From Allofournierella massiliensis (lineage in GTDB: Bacteria > Bacillota > Clostridia > Oscillospirales > Ruminococcaceae): 64,000 bases of DNA. Position 1 is the first letter of the stretch; the number at the start of each line of letters is the position of its first letter. Where the stretch lies: positions 1 through 64,000 of the forward strand of contig NZ_SLUM01000001.1 in NCBI RefSeq assembly GCF_004345265.1, given 5' to 3'. Under the pieces are notes generated by a model. The model was not told the DNA's origin, did not search any database, and saw only the letters and a list, made by a program, of their open reading frames with translations. Positions 6,044 through 57,295 of this stretch are shown here, in pieces. The translations under genes were made by a program, and so were the position numbers.

Positions 6044-6119
6044 CGGGGTGTAGCGCAGCTGGTAGCGCGCCTGCTTTGGGAGCAGGATGCCGTGGGTTCG
6101 AATCCCGCCACTCCGACCA
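6044..6119 (+). tRNA. tRNA-Pro (UGG)
   Basis: A 76-base cloverleaf with acceptor stem CGGGGTG/CACTCCG, anticodon stem CCTGC/GCAGG around TTTGGGA (anticodon TGG), a GTTCGAATC T-loop and an encoded CCA end. Confidence 0.97.
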
Positions 6120-6127
6120 TCATATAA

Positions 6128-6203
6128 GCGGCTTTAGCTCATCTGGTAGAGCGCCACCTTGCCAAGGTGGAGGTAGCGAGTTCGAGCCTCGTAAGCCGCT
6201 CCA
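6128..6203 (+). tRNA. tRNA-Gly (GCC)
   Basis: Acceptor stem GCGGCTT/AAGCCGC, anticodon stem CCACC/GGTGG around TTGCCAA (anticodon GCC), T-loop GTTCGAGCC and an encoded CCA end. Confidence 0.97.
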
Positions 6204-6214
6204 TTTTTTTGTCT

Positions 6215-6290
6215 GGAAGTTTAGCTCAGCTGGGAGAGCATCTGCCTTACAAGCAGAGGGTCACAGGTTCGAGCCCTGTAACTTCCACCA
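6215..6290 (+). tRNA. tRNA-Val (UAC)
   Basis: Acceptor stem GGAAGTT/AACTTCC, anticodon stem TCTGC/GCAGA around CTTACAA (anticodon TAC), T-loop GTTCGAGCC and an encoded CCA end. Confidence 0.97.
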
Positions 6291-6296
6291 AAAAAC

Positions 6297-6372
6297 GCCT
6301 CTGTAGCTCAGTTGGTAGAGCAGGGGACTGAAAATCCCCGTGTCATTGGTTCGATTCCGATCGGAGGCACCA
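6297..6372 (+). tRNA. tRNA-Phe (GAA)
   Basis: Acceptor stem GCCTCTG with its 3' partner CGGAGGC, anticodon stem GGGGA/TCCCC around CTGAAAA (anticodon GAA), T-loop GTTCGATTC and an encoded CCA end. It is the last member of the four-gene operon. Confidence 0.97.
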
Positions 6373-10117: not shown

Positions 10118-10212
10118 GTTCTGTCAGAATGTTGCGAAGAAACACGAAGGAAAGTTCGCCCTCCGCACGGGTGCCCGGGCTTTTATAATAAAGGAAAGGG
10201 GGCGGAGGAAGG

Positions 10213-10944
10213 ATGTACCGGTTTGCGGTGTGTGATGACGACAGCTTTTACCGCTGGCAGCTGGCCCGGCTGCTGCGGAGCTTTGAGCCTTGGCAGAAAA
10301 CCGGCTGCCGGGTGGACTGCTTTTCCGAGGCGGCGCAGCTGCTGGCGGAATGCGAGCACTGCCGCTATGACGCGGTGTTTCTGGACGTGCAGATGCCCCG
10401 GATGAACGGGCTGGAGGCGGCCCGGCGACTGCGGGCGCTCTGGCCCTGGGTGCCGCTGGTGTTTGTGTCCGCCTTCTGTGAGTACGCGCCGGAGGGCTAT
10501 GGGCTGCGGGCCTTCCGCTATTTGTGTAAGGATCGGCTGGAGCAGTGCATGGGCCCATGTCTGGAGGATCTGCTGGCCCAGTACCTCGCCCCCTGCACGC
10601 TGGAGCTGCCGGTGGACGGGGAGGTGTGCCGGGTGAATCTGGCCCGGGTGGAATCCATCCGGCTGGACGGCCACACCGTGGAATTCCATTTTGCGGACAA
10701 TACCCTCCCGCTGCCCTGCCGTATCAGCCTTGCCCGGCTGGAGCAGCTGCTGGAGGGGAGGCCCTTTCTGCGCACCCAGCGCAGCTATTATGTGAATCTG
10801 TGTCAGGTGCAGCGGCTGCGCCGGTTCGAGTTCGTGCTGCGCAGCGGGCGCGGGGTGCCGGTGAGCGAGCGGCGCTATGGCCGGGTGCGGGCGGAGTATC
10901 TGGAATGGCAGGCCCGCTTTGAGGAATGGGCCGCCCGGTTCTGA
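10213..10944 (+). CDS. LytTR-family response regulator
   Basis: The 243-residue protein has a receiver domain (1-125) with the acidic pocket Asp8-Asp10, phospho-acceptor Asp58 in VFLDVQMPRMNG and Lys106 in YLCKD, then a LytTR DNA-binding domain (about 140-240; FLRTQRSYYVNL). It is the AgrA/LytR type that controls peptide or envelope responses. No histidine kinase gene is adjacent, so it is an orphan in this window. TATAAT (10184-10189) lies upstream and an AAAGGG-type site precedes the ATG. The gene ends next to a 280-bp structured repeat. Confidence 0.9.
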   Translation: MYRFAVCDDDSFYRWQLARLLRSFEPWQKTGCRVDCFSEAAQLLAECEHCRYDAVFLDVQMPRMNGLEAARRLRALWPWVPLVFVSAFCEYAPEGYGLRAFRYLCKDRLEQCMGPCLEDLLAQYLAPCTLELPVDGEVCRVNLARVESIRLDGHTVEFHFADNTLPLPCRISLARLEQLLEGRPFLRTQRSYYVNLCQVQRLRRFEFVLRSGRGVPVSERRYGRVRAEYLEWQARFEEWAARF

Positions 10945-11009
10945 ACTCCCGTCGAAAGGCCCTCAAAAAGAAAAAACATCCCCTGTTCCGTGCCAACACC
11001 GGCAGGGAA

Positions 11010-11289
11010 AGCCGGTGTGACACAAGAAAACGACGCCGGAAAAGGGCCGCTTTTGCGGGATTGCAGCGTCAAAGCCCCTTGACAACCACCAAGGGTGCCT
11101 GCGGGCCTTTTCCTTGCACTCCCATCAAAATCGGGCCTTTTCCGGTGCGAAGCAGTTCTGCCCCAGGATTTTGGATGCAGAAAGTGCGAAAAGGGGCGGA
11201 GCAAGCCTTGATGGCTTGCCCGCCCCTTTGAACATTTTGTGCGCCAAAATCCTAAGGCAGAACCGTTGTTTTCTTATGCCACACCGGCT
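11010..11289. repeat. 280-bp palindromic interspersed element, copy 1
   Basis: This element is 264/280 identical, without indels, to positions 55744-56023. Its ends are inverted repeats of 26 bases (11010-11035 against 11264-11289, 23/26 matching), starting AGCCGGTGTG. Inside are several stems: CCGGTGT/ACGCCGG (11012-11018/11033-11039), CCGC/GCGG, CCCTTG/CAAGGG, a long outer stem 11155-11174/11244-11263, and a nested stem 11193-11207/11213-11226 with one bulged A. It separates the convergent LytTR and anti-sigma genes. The region contains no credible gene: open frames cross it only by chance and run into neighbours. It may be a MITE-like transposable unit, a bidirectional terminator, or both. 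Confidence 0.9.
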
Positions 11290-11323
11290 AATGGGGGATG
11301 CTTTTGTTTTCGGGTTGCGCGCG

Positions 11324-11959
11324 TCATTCGCCGGGGCTGACCAGATAGAGCCGGTAGCTTCCGTCGCTTTCGCCAGCCAGCACAAAGGCAAAGGAGCCGT
11401 CCGGGGCAAGGCCGCTGGCCAGAACATCCGCCCGGGTGCGGCCCTCGCCCTCGGCGGCGAGGATCTCGTCCAGCTGCTCCAGCGCAGCGTCCGCGCCCTC
11501 CGCTTCGTCGGCGGGCTGCGTATCGGCAGGCAGAGCGGCTTCGGGGGAGTCTGCCTCCACGGTGGTGTAGGCGGGAGCGGCGGTTTCATCCGGCGCGCCG
11601 TTTTCGGCCATGGCGGCTTCCGGGGCGGCGGCCAGCGCAAAGGGCGCGGCCTCGGGGGCCACGGCAGCGCTGCTTTCCGGCATCTGGCGGGTGGCAACGC
11701 GGGGGCTGGCCTGATCCGCTGCGGTGGCGCCGCCCGAGACGGAGGTCAGGCTGCGGGCGGCGGCCGGGATCACCAGCAGGCAAATGGCGGCGGCGGTGGC
11801 CAGCGGAATGGCACGACGGCCGAAGGGAATGGTCCGGCGGGGCCGGGAGGCCTTTTGGGCCGCGGTCTCCGCCTGCATCTTTTCCAGAGTGGCTTGCTTC
11901 CAGCGCTGGCCGGCGGCGACTTTTTCCATGGCGCTTTTGTAATCCTTGGAGTCGGGCAT
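11324..11959 (-). CDS. Putative membrane-bound anti-sigma factor
   Basis: The 211-residue product has a cytosolic N-terminal part rich in Lys/Gln (1-50), one transmembrane helix (about 54-75, AIPLATAAAICLLVIPAAARSL) and an Ala/Glu-rich acidic outer part that ends in a small domain with DGSFAFVLAGESDGSYRLYLV. The start ATG lies 2 bases after the stop of the ECF sigma gene, so the pair is an operon. By position and topology it should sequester the sigma factor, but it lacks a recognisable zinc-binding anti-sigma motif, so the role is inferred. Confidence 0.65.
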   Translation of the reverse strand: MPDSKDYKSAMEKVAAGQRWKQATLEKMQAETAAQKASRPRRTIPFGRRAIPLATAAAICLLVIPAAARSLTSVSGGATAADQASPRVATRQMPESSAAVAPEAAPFALAAAPEAAMAENGAPDETAAPAYTTVEADSPEAALPADTQPADEAEGADAALEQLDEILAAEGEGRTRADVLASGLAPDGSFAFVLAGESDGSYRLYLVSPGE

Positions 11960-11961
11960 GG

Positions 11962-12444
11962 TCAGAAGTCTCCTTTCAGCGTGTCTTTCAGAAGGGCCCG
12001 CCCGCGGGAAAGCTGGCTGAGCACGGTGTTCTGCTTTAAGCCCAGCAGCGCCGCGATCTCGGCGGTGGAATAACCCTCGATGTAATGCAGATAGATCACC
12101 TGCCGGTATTTCATGGGCAGGGCGGCCACCGCGTCCAGCACGGTGTTTTCTGCGGGGGTGAAGGGGGTGGAGAGGTGCTCGTCCAGCGGGGCGCTGCGGC
12201 GCACCCAGGCACTGCGGAAGTGGCTTTTGCACCGGTTGATGGTGCAGCGCAGCAGCCAGGCCTTCTGATGCTCGGCGGAATCAAACTGGGGTGCATGGCG
12301 CACCAGATTCAAAAATACTTCCTGGGCAATGTCCTCCGCGTCCTGCGGATTTTTTACCAGACCGAAGGCGGCCCGGAACACGGTATCGCCAAACTGCTCC
12401 ACCGCCGCTTCCGGGGTGAAGGCAGGCATCTGGGCCGTTTCCAC
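11962..12444 (-). CDS. ECF-type RNA polymerase sigma factor
   Basis: The 160-residue protein has sigma-70 region 2 (about 17-85, with KNPQDAEDIAQEVFLNLV and a TINRCKSHFRS end) and region 4 (about 105-155, LPMKYRQVIYLHYIEGYSTAEIAALLGLKQNTVLSQLSRGR), the minimal layout of extracytoplasmic-function sigma factors. The start is a GTG at 12444 because an AAGGGGGG ribosome site sits about 7 bases upstream; the next Met is six codons in. It is co-transcribed with the putative anti-sigma gene. Confidence 0.93.
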   Translation of the reverse strand: METAQMPAFTPEAAVEQFGDTVFRAAFGLVKNPQDAEDIAQEVFLNLVRHAPQFDSAEHQKAWLLRCTINRCKSHFRSAWVRRSAPLDEHLSTPFTPAENTVLDAVAALPMKYRQVIYLHYIEGYSTAEIAALLGLKQNTVLSQLSRGRALLKDTLKGDF

Positions 12445-12531
12445 GGGGCAGGCCCCCCTTTCTCATACAGAATACAACACAACTGGCCCTATTATTGCAC
12501 GGATGGTTTGGATTGTAAAGAAAAATGGGCG

Positions 12532-12595
12532 AAAAGCGCCCCCGACTCATCCTGCCCCGCAGGCTACTGCCCGCAGAGGGATGCGCCGGGGGCGC
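12532..12595 (-). terminator. Terminator of the TrpXYZ-type ABC operon
   Basis: GCGCCCCCG (12536-12544) and CGGGGGCGC (12587-12595) close a branched hairpin with CATCC/GGATG inside; on the minus strand it is followed by TTTTCGCCC. Confidence 0.7.
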
Positions 12596-12620
12596 CTTTC
12601 GTTCTATTTCCGCTGCCCCG

Positions 12621-12677
12621 GTTGGCCATTGGGGGCCGCCCCGCACAGCGGCGAGGGGCCCCCAAGGCAGCCAATCG
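12621..12677. other. Long structured palindrome in the ECF-ABC intergenic region
   Basis: The 370-base gap between the ECF gene and the ABC ATPase gene holds no gene. Besides the terminator it contains GGTTGGC...GCCAATC enclosing TTGGGGGCC...GGCCCCCAA, then further short stems (GGGG...CCCC near 12697-12710, CGCGCC...GGCGCG near 12745-12766). The density of pairing resembles a structured repeat or RNA, but no second copy is in the window. Confidence 0.45.
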
Positions 12678-12813
12678 GAGGGGAAAGCATAGATAGGGGG
12701 AGCAACCCCGCACGATTCACGCCCGATGGGCGCAGGCGGCGTATCGCGCCAAAATTTTCCGGCGCGTTCCACCATCTGGAAGTGTGCGGTGCTGCCCAAA
12801 AGAAGGCAAGCGG

Positions 12814-13608
12814 TTAGGACAGCAGCAGCTTGTCGTCCGCTTCGCTGGAGCCGCTGGCCTGATTGAATTTCTCCAGCAGGTCCTCCACGGTCAGGCGGCG
12901 CTTTTCCTCGCCCCGCACGTCAACCACCACGCGCCCGTCGTACAGCATGACCAGCCGGTTGCCGTGGGCAATGGCGTCGCGCATGTTGTGGGTGATCATC
13001 AGGGTGGTCAGATTGTCCCGCCGGACGATCTGCTCGGTGGCCGAAAGCACCTTGGCGGCGGTCTTGGGATCCAGCGCGGCGGTGTGCTCGTCCAGCAAAA
13101 GCAGCTGGGGCTTTTTCAGCGTGGCCATCAGAAGGGTCAGCGCCTGCCGCTGGCCGCCGCTGAGCAGGCCCACCTTGCTGGTGAGCCGGTCCTCAAGGCC
13201 CAGATCCAGAATCTTTAAAAGCTCCCGGTACTGCTCCCGCTCGGCCCGGCTGATGCCGGTGCGCAGGCCCCGGCGCTGGCCACGCCGGGCGGCGAGGGCC
13301 AGGTTTTCCTCAATCTGCATGGTGGCGGCGGTGCCCATCATGGGGTCCTGAAAGACCCGGCCGATGTAGGGGGCACGCTTGTATTCCGGCAGGCGGGTCA
13401 CATCCACCCCGCCGATGGAGATGCTGCCCTCGTCCACGGTGGAAGCGCCGGAGATGATGTTCAGCATGGTGGATTTGCCCGCGCCGTTGCCGCCGATCAC
13501 GGTGACGAAATCGCCGTCCGCCAGCGAGAGATTCAGCCCCTGCAGCGCCCGCTTTTCGTTCACGGTGCCCGGGTTGAAGGTTTTATAGATGTTTTTCAGT
13601 TCAAGCAT
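12814..13608 (-). CDS. ABC transporter ATP-binding protein (TrpZ-like)
   Basis: The 264-residue ATPase has Walker A GGNGAGKST (39-47), Q-loop around 87, signature LSGGQ (149-153) and Walker B LLLLDEH (169-175). The usual DEP after Walker B reads DEH, which is typical of this COG1101 subfamily. It powers import by the adjacent permease and lipoprotein. Its first 8 bases overlap the end of the permease gene. The three-gene set matches the TrpXYZ/COG2984-COG4120-COG1101 importer type; aromatic amino acids are the known substrate in streptococci, but the substrate here is not proven. Confidence 0.93.
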   Translation of the reverse strand: MLELKNIYKTFNPGTVNEKRALQGLNLSLADGDFVTVIGGNGAGKSTMLNIISGASTVDEGSISIGGVDVTRLPEYKRAPYIGRVFQDPMMGTAATMQIEENLALAARRGQRRGLRTGISRAEREQYRELLKILDLGLEDRLTSKVGLLSGGQRQALTLLMATLKKPQLLLLDEHTAALDPKTAAKVLSATEQIVRRDNLTTLMITHNMRDAIAHGNRLVMLYDGRVVVDVRGEEKRRLTVEDLLEKFNQASGSSEADDKLLLS

Positions 13609-14524
13609 GGCTGCCCGCTCCTTTCCCGGTGCGTTTTGTGAAGTACCGGCCCTTCCAGTAGGGCACGGCCAGGAACAGCGCCACGATCAGGGCGGTGATG
13701 AGCTTCATGTCGTCGCTCTTGAGGCCCAGCAGAATGACCACCTGATACACCAGATAGTAGATCAGCGAGCCGAACACCACGGCCAGCAGCTTGAGCGCGA
13801 AGTTGCGGAACACTTTGGAGAACAGCACCTCGCCGATGATCACCGCCGCAAGGCCGATGACGATGGCGCCGCGGCCGCTGTTCACGTCCGCGAAGCCCTG
13901 ATACTGGGCCAGCAGCGCGGCGGAAAGAGCCACCAGACCGTTGGAGAGCATCAGCCCCAGCACGGTGGTGAAATTGGTGTTGATGCCCTGAGCCCGGGCC
14001 ATGTTGGGGTTCGCGCCGGTGGCACGCACCGCGCAGCCCTGCTCGGTGCCGAAGAACCAGTACAGGGCACCGATGGTGGCGGCGGTGAAGAGCACGCACA
14101 TCAGAATGGGGTTGGACAGCGCGGCCTCGCGCACATTGCGGGCGCTCACCAGCAGGGGGTATTTGTCCACGCTGATGGGCCGGTTGGACTGGCCCATGAT
14201 GCGCAGGTTCACGGAATACAACGCCAGCTGGGTGAGGATGCCGGCCAGGATGGCAGGAATGCCGCAGGCGGTGTGCAACAGGCCGGTGACAAGCCCCGCT
14301 GCCATGCCCGCCAGAAAGGCGGCCACCAGCGCGGGCCAGGGATTCCAGCCTCCGGTCACCAGCATGATGAATACCGCGCCGCCGGTGCACATGGTGCCGT
14401 CCACCGTCAGGTCGGCCACGTCCAGAATTTTATAGGTGATGTAAACGCCGATGGCCATGATGCTCCAGATCAGGCCCTGGGCGACCACGCCCGGCAGGGC
14501 GTTCAGAAGTGTGTTGATGAACAA
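13601..14524 (-). CDS. ABC transporter permease (TrpY-like)
   Basis: The 307-residue membrane protein has about eight to nine hydrophobic segments and the signature ILDVADLTVDGTMCTGGAVF near residues 33-52 that marks the COG4120 permease group related to branched-chain amino-acid permeases. GANPNMARAQGINTN (about 173-187) matches the cytoplasmic coupling region. It forms the channel of the importer with the overlapping ATPase gene. The ATG at 14524 has a GGAGG-like site upstream. Confidence 0.92.
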   Translation of the reverse strand: MFINTLLNALPGVVAQGLIWSIMAIGVYITYKILDVADLTVDGTMCTGGAVFIMLVTGGWNPWPALVAAFLAGMAAGLVTGLLHTACGIPAILAGILTQLALYSVNLRIMGQSNRPISVDKYPLLVSARNVREAALSNPILMCVLFTAATIGALYWFFGTEQGCAVRATGANPNMARAQGINTNFTTVLGLMLSNGLVALSAALLAQYQGFADVNSGRGAIVIGLAAVIIGEVLFSKVFRNFALKLLAVVFGSLIYYLVYQVVILLGLKSDDMKLITALIVALFLAVPYWKGRYFTKRTGKGAGSHA

Positions 14525-14570
14525 GAAAAGCTCCTCCTAAAGCCGGGAATCTGGCCCGGCGGATGATGGA

Positions 14571-15590
14571 TCATTCCGCTTCAATGGCGGTGTAGCCCTC
14601 GGGGATGGTCACGCCCAGCTGCTCGCACAAAGTGGGGTTGTACATCTTGGTGAAGGTGGGGGCGGACTGCACCTCCATGGTGGTGATGTCCGCTTCGCCG
14701 GTGAGGATCTTGGCGGCCATCTCACCGGTGGTGCGGCCCAGCTCGTAATAGTCGATGGACAAAGTGGCCACGCCGCAGCCGCTGCAGATACCCTGCTCGC
14801 CTGCCACGATGGGAACCCCGGCGGGCACCGCGATGTTGGCGATCAGTTCAGTGTTGTTGGCGGCGGTGTTATCGGTGGGGATGTAGATCACGTCACTGGC
14901 CGCGCAGGCGCTGGTGCACACAGCGGACAGATCGTTGGTGTCCGAGAAGGAATACTCGGTGCAGGTGTAGCCCAGCTCGGTGAGGTATTCGGTGATCACG
15001 TTTACCTGATACTTGGAGTTGGGTTCCGCCGAGCAGTAGAGCAGGCCCACGTTCTTGGCGTCCGGGAACAGCTCCTTGATCATGTCGGCCTGACCGTCCA
15101 GCGGGGCCAGATCGGTGGTGCCGCTGATGTTGCGGCCGGAGGAGCCGGTCCAGTCGGTCACGTCCAGCGCGGTGGCGTAGTCGGTGATGGAGGTGCCCAG
15201 AATGGGGATGCTGTCGGTGGCTGCGGCCGCCGCCTGCAGGGGCGTGGTGGCGTTGGCCAGAATCAGATCCACATCCGAGGACACAAAGCTGTTGATGATG
15301 GTGGCGCAGTTGGAGTTATCGCCGGAGGCGTTCTCCACATCGAAGGTGACGGCGTCGCCAAAGGTCTCGGTGAGGGCATCCTGAAAGCCCTGGGTGGCGG
15401 AGTCCAGCGCGGGGTGCTGCATCAGCTGGCACACGCCCACCCGGTAGGACGCGCCCTCGGCGGAGCCGGATGCACCGGACGCAGTGGAAGCGGTGGACGC
15501 AGCGGAAGAAGTGCCGCCGGAGCCGCAGCCGGCCAGAGTGGCCAGCATGGCGCAGGCCAGAACGCCTGCCATGGTCTTGCGAAGTTTCAT
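14571..15590 (-). CDS. ABC transporter substrate-binding lipoprotein (TrpX-like)
   Basis: The 339-residue precursor has a lipoprotein signal peptide ending LATLAGC (acylated Cys22), a Ser/Ala/Gly-rich linker to about residue 47, then a two-lobe type I periplasmic-binding fold of the COG2984/PF04392 family (VGVCQLMQHPALDSATQGF, and later GEADITTMEVQ). It captures the ligand outside the membrane and delivers it to the permease. It is the first gene of the operon, with a consensus promoter and a hairpin in its leader. Confidence 0.93.
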   Translation of the reverse strand: MKLRKTMAGVLACAMLATLAGCGSGGTSSAASTASTASGASGSAEGASYRVGVCQLMQHPALDSATQGFQDALTETFGDAVTFDVENASGDNSNCATIINSFVSSDVDLILANATTPLQAAAAATDSIPILGTSITDYATALDVTDWTGSSGRNISGTTDLAPLDGQADMIKELFPDAKNVGLLYCSAEPNSKYQVNVITEYLTELGYTCTEYSFSDTNDLSAVCTSACAASDVIYIPTDNTAANNTELIANIAVPAGVPIVAGEQGICSGCGVATLSIDYYELGRTTGEMAAKILTGEADITTMEVQSAPTFTKMYNPTLCEQLGVTIPEGYTAIEAE

Positions 15591-15671
15591 GTGTGGTTCC
15601 TCCCTGTGAAAAAAAGAAGTTCACTTTGCCGCCACAATGAATTGCAGCAGTAAAGTGCAAGGTGCTGGAAA

Positions 15672-15689
15672 AAGGCCGCTGCCGGCCTT
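15672..15689 (-). promoter_or_regulatory. Leader hairpin of the TrpXYZ-type operon
   Basis: On the minus strand AAGGCCG-GCAG-CGGCCTT is followed by TTTCC, only about 7 bases after the -10 box. It could be an mRNA-stabilising 5' hairpin or a weak attenuator. No T-box motif is visible in the short leader. Confidence 0.4.
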
Positions 15690-15695
15690 GGCTTT

Positions 15696-15724
15696 ATTCT
15701 AGTAAAGTTTTACGGTTCTGTCAA
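15696..15724 (-). promoter_or_regulatory. Promoter of the TrpXYZ-type operon
   Basis: On the minus strand TTGACA (15724-15719), exactly 17 bases, and TAGAAT (15701-15696) form an almost perfect sigma-A promoter. Confidence 0.9.
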
Positions 15725-15826
15725 CGGGGAATGGGCAAAAAGGCAAAAAAAAGGCGGCCCCGGCCCCGAAAAAGGGCACAGAAGGGGTGAAAAAGGGCAT
15801 AAAACGGCGCGGGCGGCGGTTTTTCC

Positions 15827-15855
15827 TTGTAGATACGGGCAAAAAATGCTATACT
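15827..15855 (+). promoter_or_regulatory. Promoter of the glycosyltransferase gene
   Basis: TTGTAG (15827-15832), 17 bases, TATACT (15850-15855), about 33 bases before the start codon. Confidence 0.65.
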
Positions 15856-15888
15856 AAAATAGACTAATTACGCTTGGAGGATGCCCGA

Positions 15889-16659
15889 ATGAGGAAGATC
15901 AGCGCCTGCATCGTGAGCTATAACGGAGCCGACGAGGTGATCCGGGCGGTGGAATCGCTGCTGAAATACACGAAGGACTGCGCGCTCACGGTCTATCTGG
16001 TGGATAACGCCAGCCCGGACGGAGCCGGCGAAACGCTGGAGCGGCAGGGCTTTCCCGAAAACGTGAAGGTCATCCGGCTGCCGGAGAATCTGGGCTTCGG
16101 CAAGGGGCACAATCAGGTGCTGGAGCTGCTGGACAGCGAGTATCATTTTGTGCTGAACCCGGATATTTTTATCGATAGCAACGTGCTGCCCGCCATCTGT
16201 GACTGGATGGATAGTCACCCGGATGTGGTGATGGCCACCCCGAAGCTGCTGTTCCCGGACGGGCGGGTGCAGATTCTGCCCAAGCGCAAGCCGAACATTC
16301 TGGGGCTTGCGGCGCGGCAGGGGGTACCGGGCCTTAAAAAATTCGGTGACCGGTACGCCATGCTGGATGAGGACCTGAGCGTGCCCACGGCCATCGAGTT
16401 CTGCACCGGCAGCTTTTTCTGCATGCGCACCAGCGTGTACAAGGCCATCGGCGGGTTTGACGAGGGCTACTTCATGTATGTGGAGGACGCGGACATCACC
16501 CAGAAGGCCCGGCAGAAGGGCTTTGTGTATTATCTGCCCCAGTTCACGGCCTATCACGCCTGGCACCGGGCTCCGAACAAGAGCCTGAAGCCCTTTTTGC
16601 AGCAGCTCAAAAGCATGGGCCGCTACTTTAACAAATGGGGCTGGCGTTTGGGCTGCTGA
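15889..16659 (+). CDS. Family 2 glycosyltransferase
   Basis: The 256-residue protein is a GT-A fold, family 2 inverting glycosyltransferase of the rhamnosyltransferase kind: N-terminal ACIVSYNG (6-13), DNAS (39-42), the nucleotide-sugar/metal motif NPD (90-92) and the acceptor-side motif GFDEGYFMYVEDAD (about 193-206). It probably transfers a dTDP-sugar such as rhamnose to a cell-surface glycan, consistent with the dTDP-sugar genes that follow. I start at the ATG at 15889, 8 bases after GGAGG, rather than at an in-frame TTG five codons upstream. The protein lacks membrane helices. Confidence 0.88.
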   Translation: MRKISACIVSYNGADEVIRAVESLLKYTKDCALTVYLVDNASPDGAGETLERQGFPENVKVIRLPENLGFGKGHNQVLELLDSEYHFVLNPDIFIDSNVLPAICDWMDSHPDVVMATPKLLFPDGRVQILPKRKPNILGLAARQGVPGLKKFGDRYAMLDEDLSVPTAIEFCTGSFFCMRTSVYKAIGGFDEGYFMYVEDADITQKARQKGFVYYLPQFTAYHAWHRAPNKSLKPFLQQLKSMGRYFNKWGWRLGC

Positions 16660-16837
16660 AACAGGCCCTGCCCCCGCTCTCTCGCAGCGTTCCGAACGCC
16701 GAAAAAACGGCTGGCAATGCTTGCGGGGGAAGAAATTTCGATTTTTCCCAACTTACGGGATGCAGGTTCAAGGCAGTCGGCGGCCATCGCTGAGGAAAGC
16801 CCGGTGTGGTGGGCTTACGGATCAGACTTAACTTCCG

Positions 16838-16863
16838 GTCGAGTCCGGAAAAAGTCGAGTCCG
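16838..16863. repeat. Tandem 10-bp direct repeats upstream of rfbA
   Basis: GTCGAGTCCG occurs at 16838-16847 and 16854-16863, 16 bases apart, just before TATATA (16873-16878). The 309-base gap 16660-16968 has no gene; it also holds a GCCCGGG/CCCGGGC hairpin (16927-16945) close to rfbA. The repeats could be a regulator site. Confidence 0.4.
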
Positions 16864-16968
16864 CTAAAAAAGTATATAGCGGCTGTAGCTCCGCTTTGTG
16901 TTAAGCTGCGCAAATTTTTTAAAATGGCCCGGGCATGACCCGGGCGGAAAAAGGAGCGTAATGCTATT

Positions 16969-17856
16969 ATGAAAGGTATCATCCTTGCCGGCGGCGCAGG
17001 CACTCGCCTGTATCCGCTCACCATGGTCACCAGCAAGCAGCTGCTGCCGGTGTACGACAAACCCATGATCTACTACCCCCTGTCCACGTTGATGCTTGCC
17101 GGCATTCAGGACATCCTGATCATCTCCACCCCGGAGGACACCCCGCGGTTCGAGCATCTGCTGGGCGACGGCAGCCAGTACGGCCTGCACCTGTCCTATA
17201 AGGTACAGCCCAGCCCGGACGGCCTGGCTCAGGCCTTTTTGCTGGGCGAGGAATTCATCGGCGACGACTGCTGCGCCATGATTCTGGGCGATAACATCTT
17301 CTACGGCAACGGCTTCTCCCGCATTCTGAAGAATGCCGTGAAGAACGCCGAGGAAAACGGCCGCGCCACCGTGTTCGGCTACTATGTGAACGACCCCGAG
17401 CGGTTCGGCATCGTGGAATTCGACGAGACCGGCAAGGTCATCAGCGTGGAGGAAAAGCCGAAGGAACCCAAATCCAACTACGCCATCACCGGCCTGTATT
17501 TCTACGACAACCGGGTCAGCGCCCAGGCCAAGCAGGTGAAGCCCAGCGCCCGCGGCGAGCTGGAAATCACCACCCTGAACGCCATGTATCTGGAAGAAGG
17601 CAAGCTGGACGTGCAGCTGCTGGGCCGCGGCTTTGCCTGGCTGGACACCGGCACCATGGACAGTCTGGTGGACGCCGCCGACTTCGTGCGCATGGTGGAA
17701 AAGCGGCAGGGCATCAAGATCAGCGCCCCCGAGGAAATTGCCTACAAGAACGGCTGGATCAGCAAGGAAAAGCTGCTGGAAAGCGCCGAGCGTTACGGCA
17801 AGAGCCCCTACGGCGAACACCTGAAACGAGTTGCCGACGCAAAGATCAAATACTAA
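16969..17856 (+). CDS. rfbA: Glucose-1-phosphate thymidylyltransferase
   Basis: The 295-residue enzyme has the nucleotidyltransferase signature [11 protein letters not shown] (8-18), [16 protein letters not shown] (23-38), ILGDNIFYG (about 105-113) and VEEKP (about 163-167). It makes dTDP-glucose from dTTP and glucose-1-phosphate, the first step of dTDP-rhamnose synthesis. It heads the rfbA-rfbD-rfbB cluster, with an AAAAGGAG site about 10 bases before the ATG. Length is normal. Confidence 0.97.
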
Positions 17857-52435: not shown

Positions 52436-52503
52436 AATTGTTCCTCCCTCACACAAAAGGCCGGACGGGTCCGGCGGTTTCCCATACGAATATTTCACAA
52501 AAA

Positions 52504-54896: not shown

Positions 54897-54992
54897 CCGG
54901 CACTTTGCCGCCTTGCGCTGCCCGAAGCCTGCGCAGGAACCCCCGCCGCCCCCTTCGCATAGGGTGAAGGCAGAGGAAAGGGGGAGAGAGGG

Positions 54993-55721
54993 ATGCACCA
55001 GATTCTGGCGGCGGTATCCATGACCGTATTTCCCTGCCTGTGCACGGCGCTGGGGGCGGGGGCGGTGTTTCTGGCCCGGCCCGCGCCGGGCGGCGGGGCG
55101 GGGCAGGGGCTGGCCGGCGGCGTGATGCTGGCGGCCTGTGTGTTCAATCTGCTGCTGCCCGCGGCCGAAAGCGGCTGGCTTGCCCCGGCGGCGGGGCTGG
55201 TGGCCGGGGCGGCGTTGCTGCTGCTGGCCGAGCGGCTGGCCGGAGCGCTGGAAAACGGCTGCGAAAAAAAGGGCCGTGGCTGGAGCGCGGCGCTGGCCAT
55301 CGGGCTGCACAACCTGCCTCAGGGCATGGTGGTGGGCCTTGCGGCGGGCAGCACCGGCCCCACCGGGGCGGCGACCGCGGGGGCGCTGGCGCTGAGCGTG
55401 GGCATCGGGCTGCAGAACCTGCCGGAGGGCGCGGCGGTGAGTTTGCCCATCTGGCGGGCCGGTGGCGGGCGCTGGCGGGCCTTCGGCGCAGGGGTGGCCA
55501 GCGGCCTTGTGGAGCCGATTGGCGCGGCGCTGGCCGCAGTGCTGGCAGGGGGCGTGCTGGCCGGGCTGATGCCCTGGCTGCTGGCGCTGGCCGCCGGGGT
55601 GATGCTGGCGGCAGCCATGCAGGAGCCGCTGGCCGCGGCCGTGCAGCAGGGCGCACCGGGGGTGCTGGCGGTGGCGGTGGGCTTTGGCCTGTTGATGGCG
55701 CTGAATCTGGCGCTGGGCTGA
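54993..55721 (+). CDS. ZIP family divalent metal transporter
   Basis: The 242-residue membrane protein has about eight hydrophobic segments and the two metal-site helices ALAIGLHNLPQGMVVGLAAG (about 98-117) and GIGLQNLPEGAAVSLP (about 136-151), plus GLVEPIGA. ZIP proteins import zinc, iron or manganese. The first site reads HNLPQG where HNxPEG is common, a conservative change. GGGGGAGAGAG precedes the ATG. It ends 22 bases before the second copy of the 280-bp repeat. Confidence 0.9.
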   Translation: MHQILAAVSMTVFPCLCTALGAGAVFLARPAPGGGAGQGLAGGVMLAACVFNLLLPAAESGWLAPAAGLVAGAALLLLAERLAGALENGCEKKGRGWSAALAIGLHNLPQGMVVGLAAGSTGPTGAATAGALALSVGIGLQNLPEGAAVSLPIWRAGGGRWRAFGAGVASGLVEPIGAALAAVLAGGVLAGLMPWLLALAAGVMLAAAMQEPLAAAVQQGAPGVLAVAVGFGLLMALNLALG

Positions 55722-55743
55722 CGCACAGAAAAAGGCCCCCAAA

Positions 55744-56023
55744 AGCCGGCGTGACATAAGAAAATGACGCCGGAAAAGGGCCGCTTTTGCGGGATTGCAG
55801 CGTCAAAGCCCCTTGACAACCACCAAGGGTGCCTGCGGGTCTTTTCCTTGCACTCCCATCAAAATCGAACCTTTTCCGGTGCAGGGCAGTTCTGCCCCAG
55901 GATTTTGGATGCGGAAAGTGCGAAAAGGGGCAGAGCAAGCCTTGGTGGCTTGCCTGCCCCTTTGAACATTTTGTGCGCCAAAATCCTACGGCAGAACCGT
56001 CGTTCTCTTATGCCACACCGGCT
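55744..56023. repeat. 280-bp palindromic interspersed element, copy 2
   Basis: This copy aligns to 11010-11289 with 16 substitutions and no gaps, in the same orientation. Its inverted ends match in 22 of 26 bases. It keeps all stems; in the nested stem one G-C pair of copy 1 is A-T here, and in the 5' stem a G-T pair is G-C, which keeps pairing. It lies between the convergent ZIP and desulfoferrodoxin genes. Confidence 0.9.
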
Positions 56024-56062
56024 AACTCCGGGGGCCAGTGTGTTTTTATGTGTTGGGAAGAA

Positions 56063-56437
56063 TCAGATCGCGGTTTTCCACAGCCCGTGCAGGTTGCAGT
56101 AGGCCCAGGCGGCCACGGGGGCTTCGCCCTCGGCCAGCGCGAACTTGACCTCGGGGGCATCGCCGGCGGCCAGCGCCTTCTGCTGCCAGCCCTGGCTGGT
56201 TTCCAGAACGATCCACTGGATCAGGTGCTCCTCGGTCATGGGATGGGCCACGCTGCCCACGCTCACGGTCACCGAACGGCCATTCACCGCCACCACGGGC
56301 AGGTGCTTTTCCACCGCGGCGTCCACCACGCCGGGCTCCAGCAGCTTCATTTTTTCGCCGCAGCATACCACCGGCACGCCGCTTTTGTTCAGAAAGGCAA
56401 CAATGTTGCCGCAGTGCTCACAACGATAGAATTCCAT
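56063..56437 (-). CDS. dfx: Desulfoferrodoxin (superoxide reductase)
   Basis: The 124-residue protein has both iron centres: the desulforedoxin-like N terminus with Cys6, Cys9, Cys25 and Cys26, and the superoxide-reducing centre with His45 (EKH), His65, His71, Cys114 and His117 (CNLHG). It reduces superoxide to peroxide without making oxygen, a hallmark of anaerobes. Start ATG 56437 follows AAAGGAG at 8 bases. An Rrf2 regulator is encoded divergently. Confidence 0.96.
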   Translation of the reverse strand: MEFYRCEHCGNIVAFLNKSGVPVVCCGEKMKLLEPGVVDAAVEKHLPVVAVNGRSVTVSVGSVAHPMTEEHLIQWIVLETSQGWQQKALAAGDAPEVKFALAEGEAPVAAWAYCNLHGLWKTAI

Positions 56438-56493
56438 ACCAAACGCTCCTTTCCGTGCGCTCAACAGTCAAAAGGGTTGTTCCCTTGTCTACC

Positions 56494-57236: not shown

Positions 57237-57267
57237 AGTGAAAACAGAACAATAGGCCGGGGAGCTG

Positions 57268-57295
57268 GCCGGGGAGCTTTGCTCCCCGGCTTTTT
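57268..57295 (+). terminator. Terminator after the Rrf2 gene
   Basis: GCCGGGGAGC and GCTCCCCGGC with a TTT loop, followed by TTTTT. Confidence 0.93.

Follow-up and report, generated by a model that had tools for sequence, protein, structure and literature searches.

The window, by which we mean the whole 64,000-nucleotide stretch of Allofournierella massiliensis DNA that was analyzed, contains two copies of a short element, copy 1 at 11010..11289 and copy 2 at 55744..56023. As the preliminary description stated, each copy is 280 bp long and the two are identical at 264 of 280 positions without a gap; both were placed on the minus strand, which serves here as the canonical orientation. When recomputed, the 26-base inverted ends matched at 23/26 positions in copy 1 (left terminal repeat, 11010..11035; right terminal repeat, 11264..11289) and at 22/26 in copy 2, again in line with that description. 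Its statement that the flanks differ also held, with an identity of 4/10 on either side in the first 10 bases outside the element; over the first 20 flanking bases, 7/20 were alike on the left and 10/20 on the right.

Both copies lie between convergent genes, and three of the four neighbors could be named by Pfam. A LytTR response regulator gene (10192..10944, plus strand) ends to the left of copy 1, and an open reading frame (ORF) without a Pfam match (11324..12280, minus strand) ends to its right; copy 2 is likewise bounded by a ZIP metal transporter gene (54963..55721, plus strand) and a desulfoferrodoxin gene (56063..56467, minus strand). Each copy is bordered by an AA target duplication (11008..11009 and 11290..11291 for copy 1; 55742..55743 and 56024..56025 for copy 2) and lies inside a host hairpin, weakly so for copy 1, a feature that the preliminary description lacked. 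Around copy 2, the host terminator consists of the left arm GGCCCCC (55734..55740), preceded by an A-tract, and the right arm GGGGGCC (56030..56036), and its flanks ranked 0/54 in the flank test described below. Around copy 1, an A-tract and the left arm CATCCCC (10965..10983) face the right arm GGGGGATG and a T-rich tract (11293..11310). The arms pair in folds, 26 further bases separate the left arm from the element, and the longest perfect stem is 7 bp; the rank of 43/54 in the 30-base flank test is not outstanding.

As for the earlier remark that no named family fits the element, neither an Rfam family nor a paper in the literature searched matched it. At the gathering score, Rfam identified only tRNAs in the window, which has a four-tRNA-gene array at 6044-6369. 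At lax E values, nothing on the element rose above threshold at 13 loci; weak overlaps included Thr_leader (26.3 bits; cutoff, 55) and rimP (28.3 bits; cutoff, 47) on L131. A description of the element was likewise absent from the literature searched, a search that left subscription papers largely outside its scope.

Multiple dispersed copies in the host genome and genus

The preliminary description had proposed that copies be counted, that target-site duplications and empty sites be sought, and that a transposase with the same inverted ends be looked for. The count gave more than two copies, dispersed and with fixed ends: BLASTN recovered seven full-length copies at 94 to 100% identity in the host genome (G000), the window's two included, together with one copy interrupted by ~97 inserted bp (C4) and another cut short by a contig end (C46). 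Since the similarity ends at the element ends and seven full copies occur in the host genome, segmental duplication and chance were ruled out. By BLASTN, the element was present in five of seven genus genomes, and its 25-bp end pattern (≤3 mismatches) was present in four of the seven; G003 is a genus genome without the element. An exact scan of the genome contig collection for the end pattern returned 18 stretches, all from Gemmiger or Fournierella; Gemmiger falls within the Clostridia.

Twenty-two elements could be aligned over 284 columns, four of them gapped, and fell into three subfamilies (main, 15 elements; G005 type, 5; phage type, 2). All 22 contain a stop-free stretch of 88 to 94 codons, in several frames at once and on both strands. 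In the main subfamily, variable sites fall about equally on the three codon positions (20/21/18), with a silent fraction of 0.19 to 0.29 across all six frames. Given the long frames in several frames and on both strands and the lack of codon-position bias, coding across the element was rejected; the long stop-free frames perhaps reflect base composition only. The unit is thus gene-less, as had been described, with open frames that lack a coding signature. An ORF test on the joined flanks was discarded, since it returned mostly the long spurious frames of GC-rich DNA. In G005, one copy (L025:1446-1727) lies within a small hydrophobic ORF.

Longer forms of 376 to 378 bp and 471 to 474 bp contain a ~97-bp module or two related modules of this size, for which there are two places; this folded module was inserted at one or both places in L008, L027, L037, L055, L057, L058, and L062. 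The forms of 318 bp (L020 and L023) resemble recombinants of forms with the ~97-bp module, and ~30-bp remnants (L030, L031, L032, L033, and L034) retain little beyond one end. At one and the same locus, the Gemmiger isolate An87 has a full element (L052) and the Gemmiger isolate An194 a remnant (L034). In G465, one terminal repeat (≤2 mismatches) was matched 31 times, and no fewer than 11 of these matches fall in the first 250 bases of a contig, which suggests that this genome carries many near-identical copies; elements of such a kind can break assemblies, G465 being an example.

The element is mobile

The same dinucleotide, AA or TT, stood on both sides of 22 of the 28 genus copies (permuted mean, 10.9; 0/5,000 permutations as high), whereas a 3-bp match was found at only 5 of the 28, giving a target-site duplication of 2 bp. 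Since TT is AA on the complementary strand, the occurrence of both among copies set in the canonical orientation means that the element inserts both ways round.

Empty sites were present in sister species. The site of window copy 2 (L006) is empty in An50 and An194, and the window itself has two empty sites: 57264..57281, an intact terminator hairpin that is occupied in An194 (L019), and 52467..52471, a hairpin that holds a 376-bp copy in An50 (L027). The empty sites of L006, L019, and L027 are all intact hairpins; that of L023 is not. Since the empty loop matched the predicted preinsertion loop letter for letter at none of the three hairpin sites (0/3), the duplication rests on statistics. 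Taken together, these results indicate that the 280-bp element is mobile.

Relatives of 284 bp interrupt the major tail gene of two prophages, in An194 (L071:9802-10085) and An50 (L072:6060-6343). The joined tail protein matches PHROG 820 (E value, 3e-37), and an uninterrupted relative of the gene (L073) has 97% protein identity. The two phage elements are 98.9% identical within flanks that are ~95% identical, and they lie in opposite orientations, which may reflect two insertions or an inversion in place. Because both elements occupy the same site of the tail gene, because their exact removal gives a gapless in-frame protein, and because both gene halves stay open, we considered whether the element is removed from RNA or skipped by the ribosome, in the manner of an intron or a translational bypass. 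A ribozyme intron, however, should not tolerate the opposite orientations of the two phage copies; the other copies examined lie outside recognizable long genes, except for the small ORF at L025; and the base changes over 149 codons (9 silent, 7 replacement) do not demonstrate function after insertion. We therefore regard removal or skipping as highly improbable. The interrupted tail gene may be split, dead, or rescued. Downstream of the tail gene, L071 contains repeated pieces of tape-measure-like genes (~11700-17700), perhaps a variable cassette.

The interior is a conserved fold with two inverted arms

The interior of the element, on which the preliminary description was silent in this respect, is as structured as its ends (fold z-scores, -11.5 and -14.1 for the two strands). 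Read along the minus strand, copy 1 has arm 1, a mini-hairpin of three pairs, and arm 2, enclosed by the closing stem that the inverted ends form. Arm 2 occupies 11036..11154 on the minus strand and has the conserved internal loops, and arm 1 occupies 11146..11263 on the opposite (plus) strand; the 9 bases common to both form the central mini-hairpin. In copy 2, arm 2 lies at 55770..55888 (minus strand) and arm 1 at 55880..55997 (plus strand).

RNAalifold predicted 107 pairs for the 22 aligned elements, 52 of them doubly compensated. Once five loop-loop pairs are included, pairing holds in 97.4% of cells, and double changes number 240, versus 63.6 ± 6.2 in shuffled and 16 to 41 in slid controls. 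A set of 29 diverse arms shows double compensation at 36 of 38 pairs (score, 0.788, versus 0.195 shuffled). All of these pair counts lean towards structure because the alignments or structures had been fitted to a structure or model. Judged by eye, distant arms have two internal loops in common, CAAGG/GACGCAG and CGCAG/CAAG or CGAG, whose order is mirrored. The apical loops of the two arms are complementary within the genus (ACCAA/UUGGU; 99.1% of cells), and in a Subdoligranulum copy both have changed (ACAAA/UUUGU). We do not claim a kissing loop between the arms, since across 32 two-arm pairs an element's own loops scored 3.25 versus 3.11 for exchanged loops (2,804/20,000), with a loop finder that misread some arms, L001 included.

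Inverted repeats are known substrates for template switching, so the compensatory changes could in principle be a mutational by-product of quasi-palindromic arms that are copied onto each other, with no need for selection; the 318-bp and ~30-bp derivatives indeed indicate that the element rearranges. Template switching should erase mismatches, however, and by eye the mismatched internal loops are largely conserved in diverse arms while the surrounding stems change, which speaks against this explanation. Even between two-arm sequences that differ greatly, moreover, the apical loops keep nearly the same positions. On balance, we find a purely mutational origin of the covariation doubtful.

A second possibility is that the element acts as a transcript, i.e., a structured RNA such as a 3′-untranslated-region element or a small RNA that has been dispersed incidentally. 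Its very low folding energies and conserved internal loops would suit such a role, as would the strand bias of the main subfamily, in which the minus strand contains 99 G-U versus 11 A-C cells and has the lower energy in 15 of 15 copies (consensus, -160.0 versus -152.7). The G-U excess, however, was counted on a structure that had itself been predicted on the minus strand. For pairs predicted from both strands, G-U and A-C cells number 11 versus 9 in the main subfamily and 23 versus 30 in all 22 elements, and pairs predicted on a single strand are rich in the wobble of the predicting strand, as expected. In the other subfamilies, moreover, the plus strand folds better in five of seven elements, and no Rfam family reached its threshold. 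The strand controls thus do not support a one-strand RNA. Given that the arms lie on opposite strands, a transcript would carry one of each; since a canonical arm is present on each strand, folded DNA is the simpler interpretation, and we consider a transcript-level function unlikely.

Relatives of the arms occur across the Clostridia

A covariance model of arm 2 (R1) scored 138.1 bits on arm 2 of copy 1 and 136.8 bits on that of copy 2; it also matched arm 1 on the other strand (57.5 and 54.5 bits, respectively). Since R1 also matches the reverse complement of arm 2 itself, more weakly (42.9 bits), the evidence that the arms are inverted relatives comes from the model R2, which scored 71.5 bits on arm 1 of copy 1. 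At 34 two-arm loci, neighboring R2 arm matches fell on opposite strands in 32/32 cases and on the same strand in none. Judged by these matches, the two arms are inverted relatives of each other.

R1 matches were found in 23 of 394 genomes of the order, and those of the distant matches that were examined were mostly ~160 to 200 bp long, single-armed, and bounded by terminal repeats of their own. R2 was applied with an E value of 1e-5 and strict filters, no more than nine candidates being scored in each genome; it had matches in 83 of the 391 Clostridia genomes, representing 53 of 223 genera, and, over the phylum, in 14 of 398 genomes. A boundary script was run on 96 arm loci, and a locus was kept only if its ends could be defined, there was room on either side, and the flanks differed; the retained set comprised, by size, 24 one-arm and 35 two-arm elements, a few of the latter being near-orthologous sites (L129/L132). 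The superfamily has one-arm (~160 bp) and two-arm (~275 to 283 bp) forms with unlike terminal repeats; the two-arm form was met repeatedly, its ends differing and its apical loops falling mostly close to positions 76 and 193. The equal length of the window copies had been read as a sign of selection on the complete unit, and the 273 to 283 bp of the 35 two-arm elements from other genera fit this suggestion. The 2-bp duplication is weak in these other genera (6 of 35 elements; permuted mean, 2.6; 173/5,000 as high).

A search of plasmids gave one match, a search of phages gave none, and viral contigs yielded only the two prophages already known. The plasmid match is a Subdoligranulum variabile copy (OY725846.1) of 281 bp, with ends that match at 24/26 positions and TT on both sides, and it sits inside a strong T-tailed hairpin.

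The element prefers the loops of host hairpins

In the flank test, the flanks of the 28 genus copies paired with each other at a mean of -15.8 kcal/mol over 20 bases, versus -9.2 kcal/mol for exchanged flanks (0/5,000), and at -19.0 versus -12.8 kcal/mol over 30 bases (0/5,000). Within 40 bases, a perfectly paired host stem of at least 7 bp surrounds 18 of the 28 copies, versus 17% of exchanged flanks, and one of at least 8 bp surrounds 13, versus 7%. An A-tract on the left and/or a T-tract on the right accompanies 25 of the 28 copies, and both accompany 14, in a count made without a control. Taken singly, 12 of the 28 copies rank in the lowest ~6% against their own exchanged flanks over 30 bases, and the remaining 16, which include window copy 1, do not. 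As a group, therefore, the element prefers hairpin loops, usually those of intrinsic and often bidirectional terminators; exceptions include L023, outside a terminator, and L024/L036, within a phage gene. The 35 two-arm elements of other genera share the preference (-8.0 versus -5.3 kcal/mol for exchanged flanks; 0/5,000), whereas one-arm relatives showed no hairpin preference (546/5,000 at 20 bases and 2,156/5,000 at 30 bases).

When 12 chosen copies were folded on both strands, each with eight shuffles, the host arms formed a mean of 16.5 pairs with the element in place, 16.1 pairs with a 4-nucleotide loop, and 14.8 pairs with shuffled elements; such equilibrium folding speaks to compatibility, not to termination, and distinguishes real from shuffled elements only at weak host arms. 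An element inside a terminator loop probably does little harm.

Transposases with PF13751 and PF05598 domains, which we take to represent the IS1182 family, occur in three of the seven genus genomes, and at all six loci examined (L114, L115, L116, L117, L120, and L125) an end of such an insertion sequence (IS) lies at a terminator hairpin; at L114, in An194, a stem-loop lies on both sides of the IS. The 280-bp element might thus be a miniature inverted-repeat transposable element (MITE) of these IS elements, particularly as the IS ends start TCAGCCTGT and the element ends start AGCCGGTGT. However, the two kinds of ends have little in common beyond AGCC, the IS lies at the foot of the hairpin and the element in its loop, and An50 (G001) has several copies of the element and no PF13751 match. 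Given these differences in ends and target, the element was not classed as IS1182 derived, and IS1182 is a weak candidate as its driver; we judge such a descent to be quite unlikely. Since IS1182-type elements lie at the terminator foot at 6/6 loci, terminators here attract more than one kind of element. Y1 transposases (PF01797) are present in all seven genus genomes, with or without the element (G003 being one without), so that their presence is uninformative as to whether a RAYT (Y1) transposase drives the element.

Discussion

Our analyses favor, with a probability of about 0.68, a nonautonomous transposable element that is moved in trans, belongs to a Clostridia-wide superfamily, and prefers terminator loops. 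The preliminary description had offered a MITE-like mobile element or a family of structured repeats, and on this reading the two hold together. A search for a transposase with the same inverted ends recovered no autonomous element, either in the genome contigs (exact pattern) or in the seven genus genomes (≤3 mismatches); the same was true for another terminal type in the four genomes that carry that type. These searches thus gave no parent transposon of the kind expected of a MITE.

As to mechanism, the moving enzyme may read the folded DNA of the arms, in single-stranded or cruciform form, with or instead of fixed ends. By closing its own ends into a stem above the host hairpin, the element would let the terminator form with the element in its loop, and insertions would be tolerated and persist because the terminator would still form around them. 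We tentatively propose, as a possibility less likely than not, that the identity of the superfamily lies in its folded core, i.e., two inverted arms with conserved noncanonical internal loops and one canonical arm per strand, which a recombinase would read as folded DNA; the terminal repeats would change freely, and the two-arm form would be specialized for terminator loops in which the terminator keeps working. Here the interior fold is common to a bacterial class and the ends are not, which suggests either an unrecognized way of moving small elements or an unrecognized role for the core. The element is also a clear example of a parasite with a preferred place in the genome, namely, terminator loops, in which an insertion that closes on itself should be least harmful.

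MITEs are normally defined by their ends, and their interior is free to vary. Bacterial MITEs are short and gene-less, have inverted ends and a target duplication, occur in several copies, and form stem-loops, as set out in a review (PMC10969869). The element resembles them in being 280 bp long, gene-less, dispersed, and able to form stem-loops, with 26-bp inverted ends and a 2-bp duplication; it differs in that no parent transposon was found, the shared part is the interior fold, the ends vary between genera, and hairpin loops are preferred. SMR-A, a short mobile repeat of the archaeon Haloquadratum (PMC3119063), is ~110 bp long, makes no target duplication, and targets PATEs and IS605-type palindromes; it has inverted ends unrelated to known transposons, no gene, and insertion inside palindromes, all of which our element shares. 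Our element is set apart from SMR-A by its 2-bp duplication and by host stems with A/T tracts.

IS1272, of the IS1182 family, also targets stem-loops of unrelated sequence, as the element does; as described (PMC5678879), it is autonomous and replaces the stem-loop without a target duplication, a model variant duplicating only the loop. Unlike with IS1272, both arms of the host stem remain around the element (18 of 28 copies) and 2 bp are doubled, so that the stem-loop is not replaced. REPs are 20 to 40 bp long and bear GTAG or CGTC tags. The inverted hairpin pairs of REPs, BIMEs/REPINs, and RAYT transposases (PMC3116915, PMC2817692, and PMC3733652), which have been proposed to be moved in trans, are similar to the two arms in arrangement. 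The arms of the element, in contrast, are ~120 nucleotides long, and its ends (AGCCGG and the like) show no GTAG or CGTC tag. Finally, bcr1 of the Bacillus cereus group is a structured mobile repeat of ~155 bp in the Bacillota, and by description alone the one-arm forms are like it in size.
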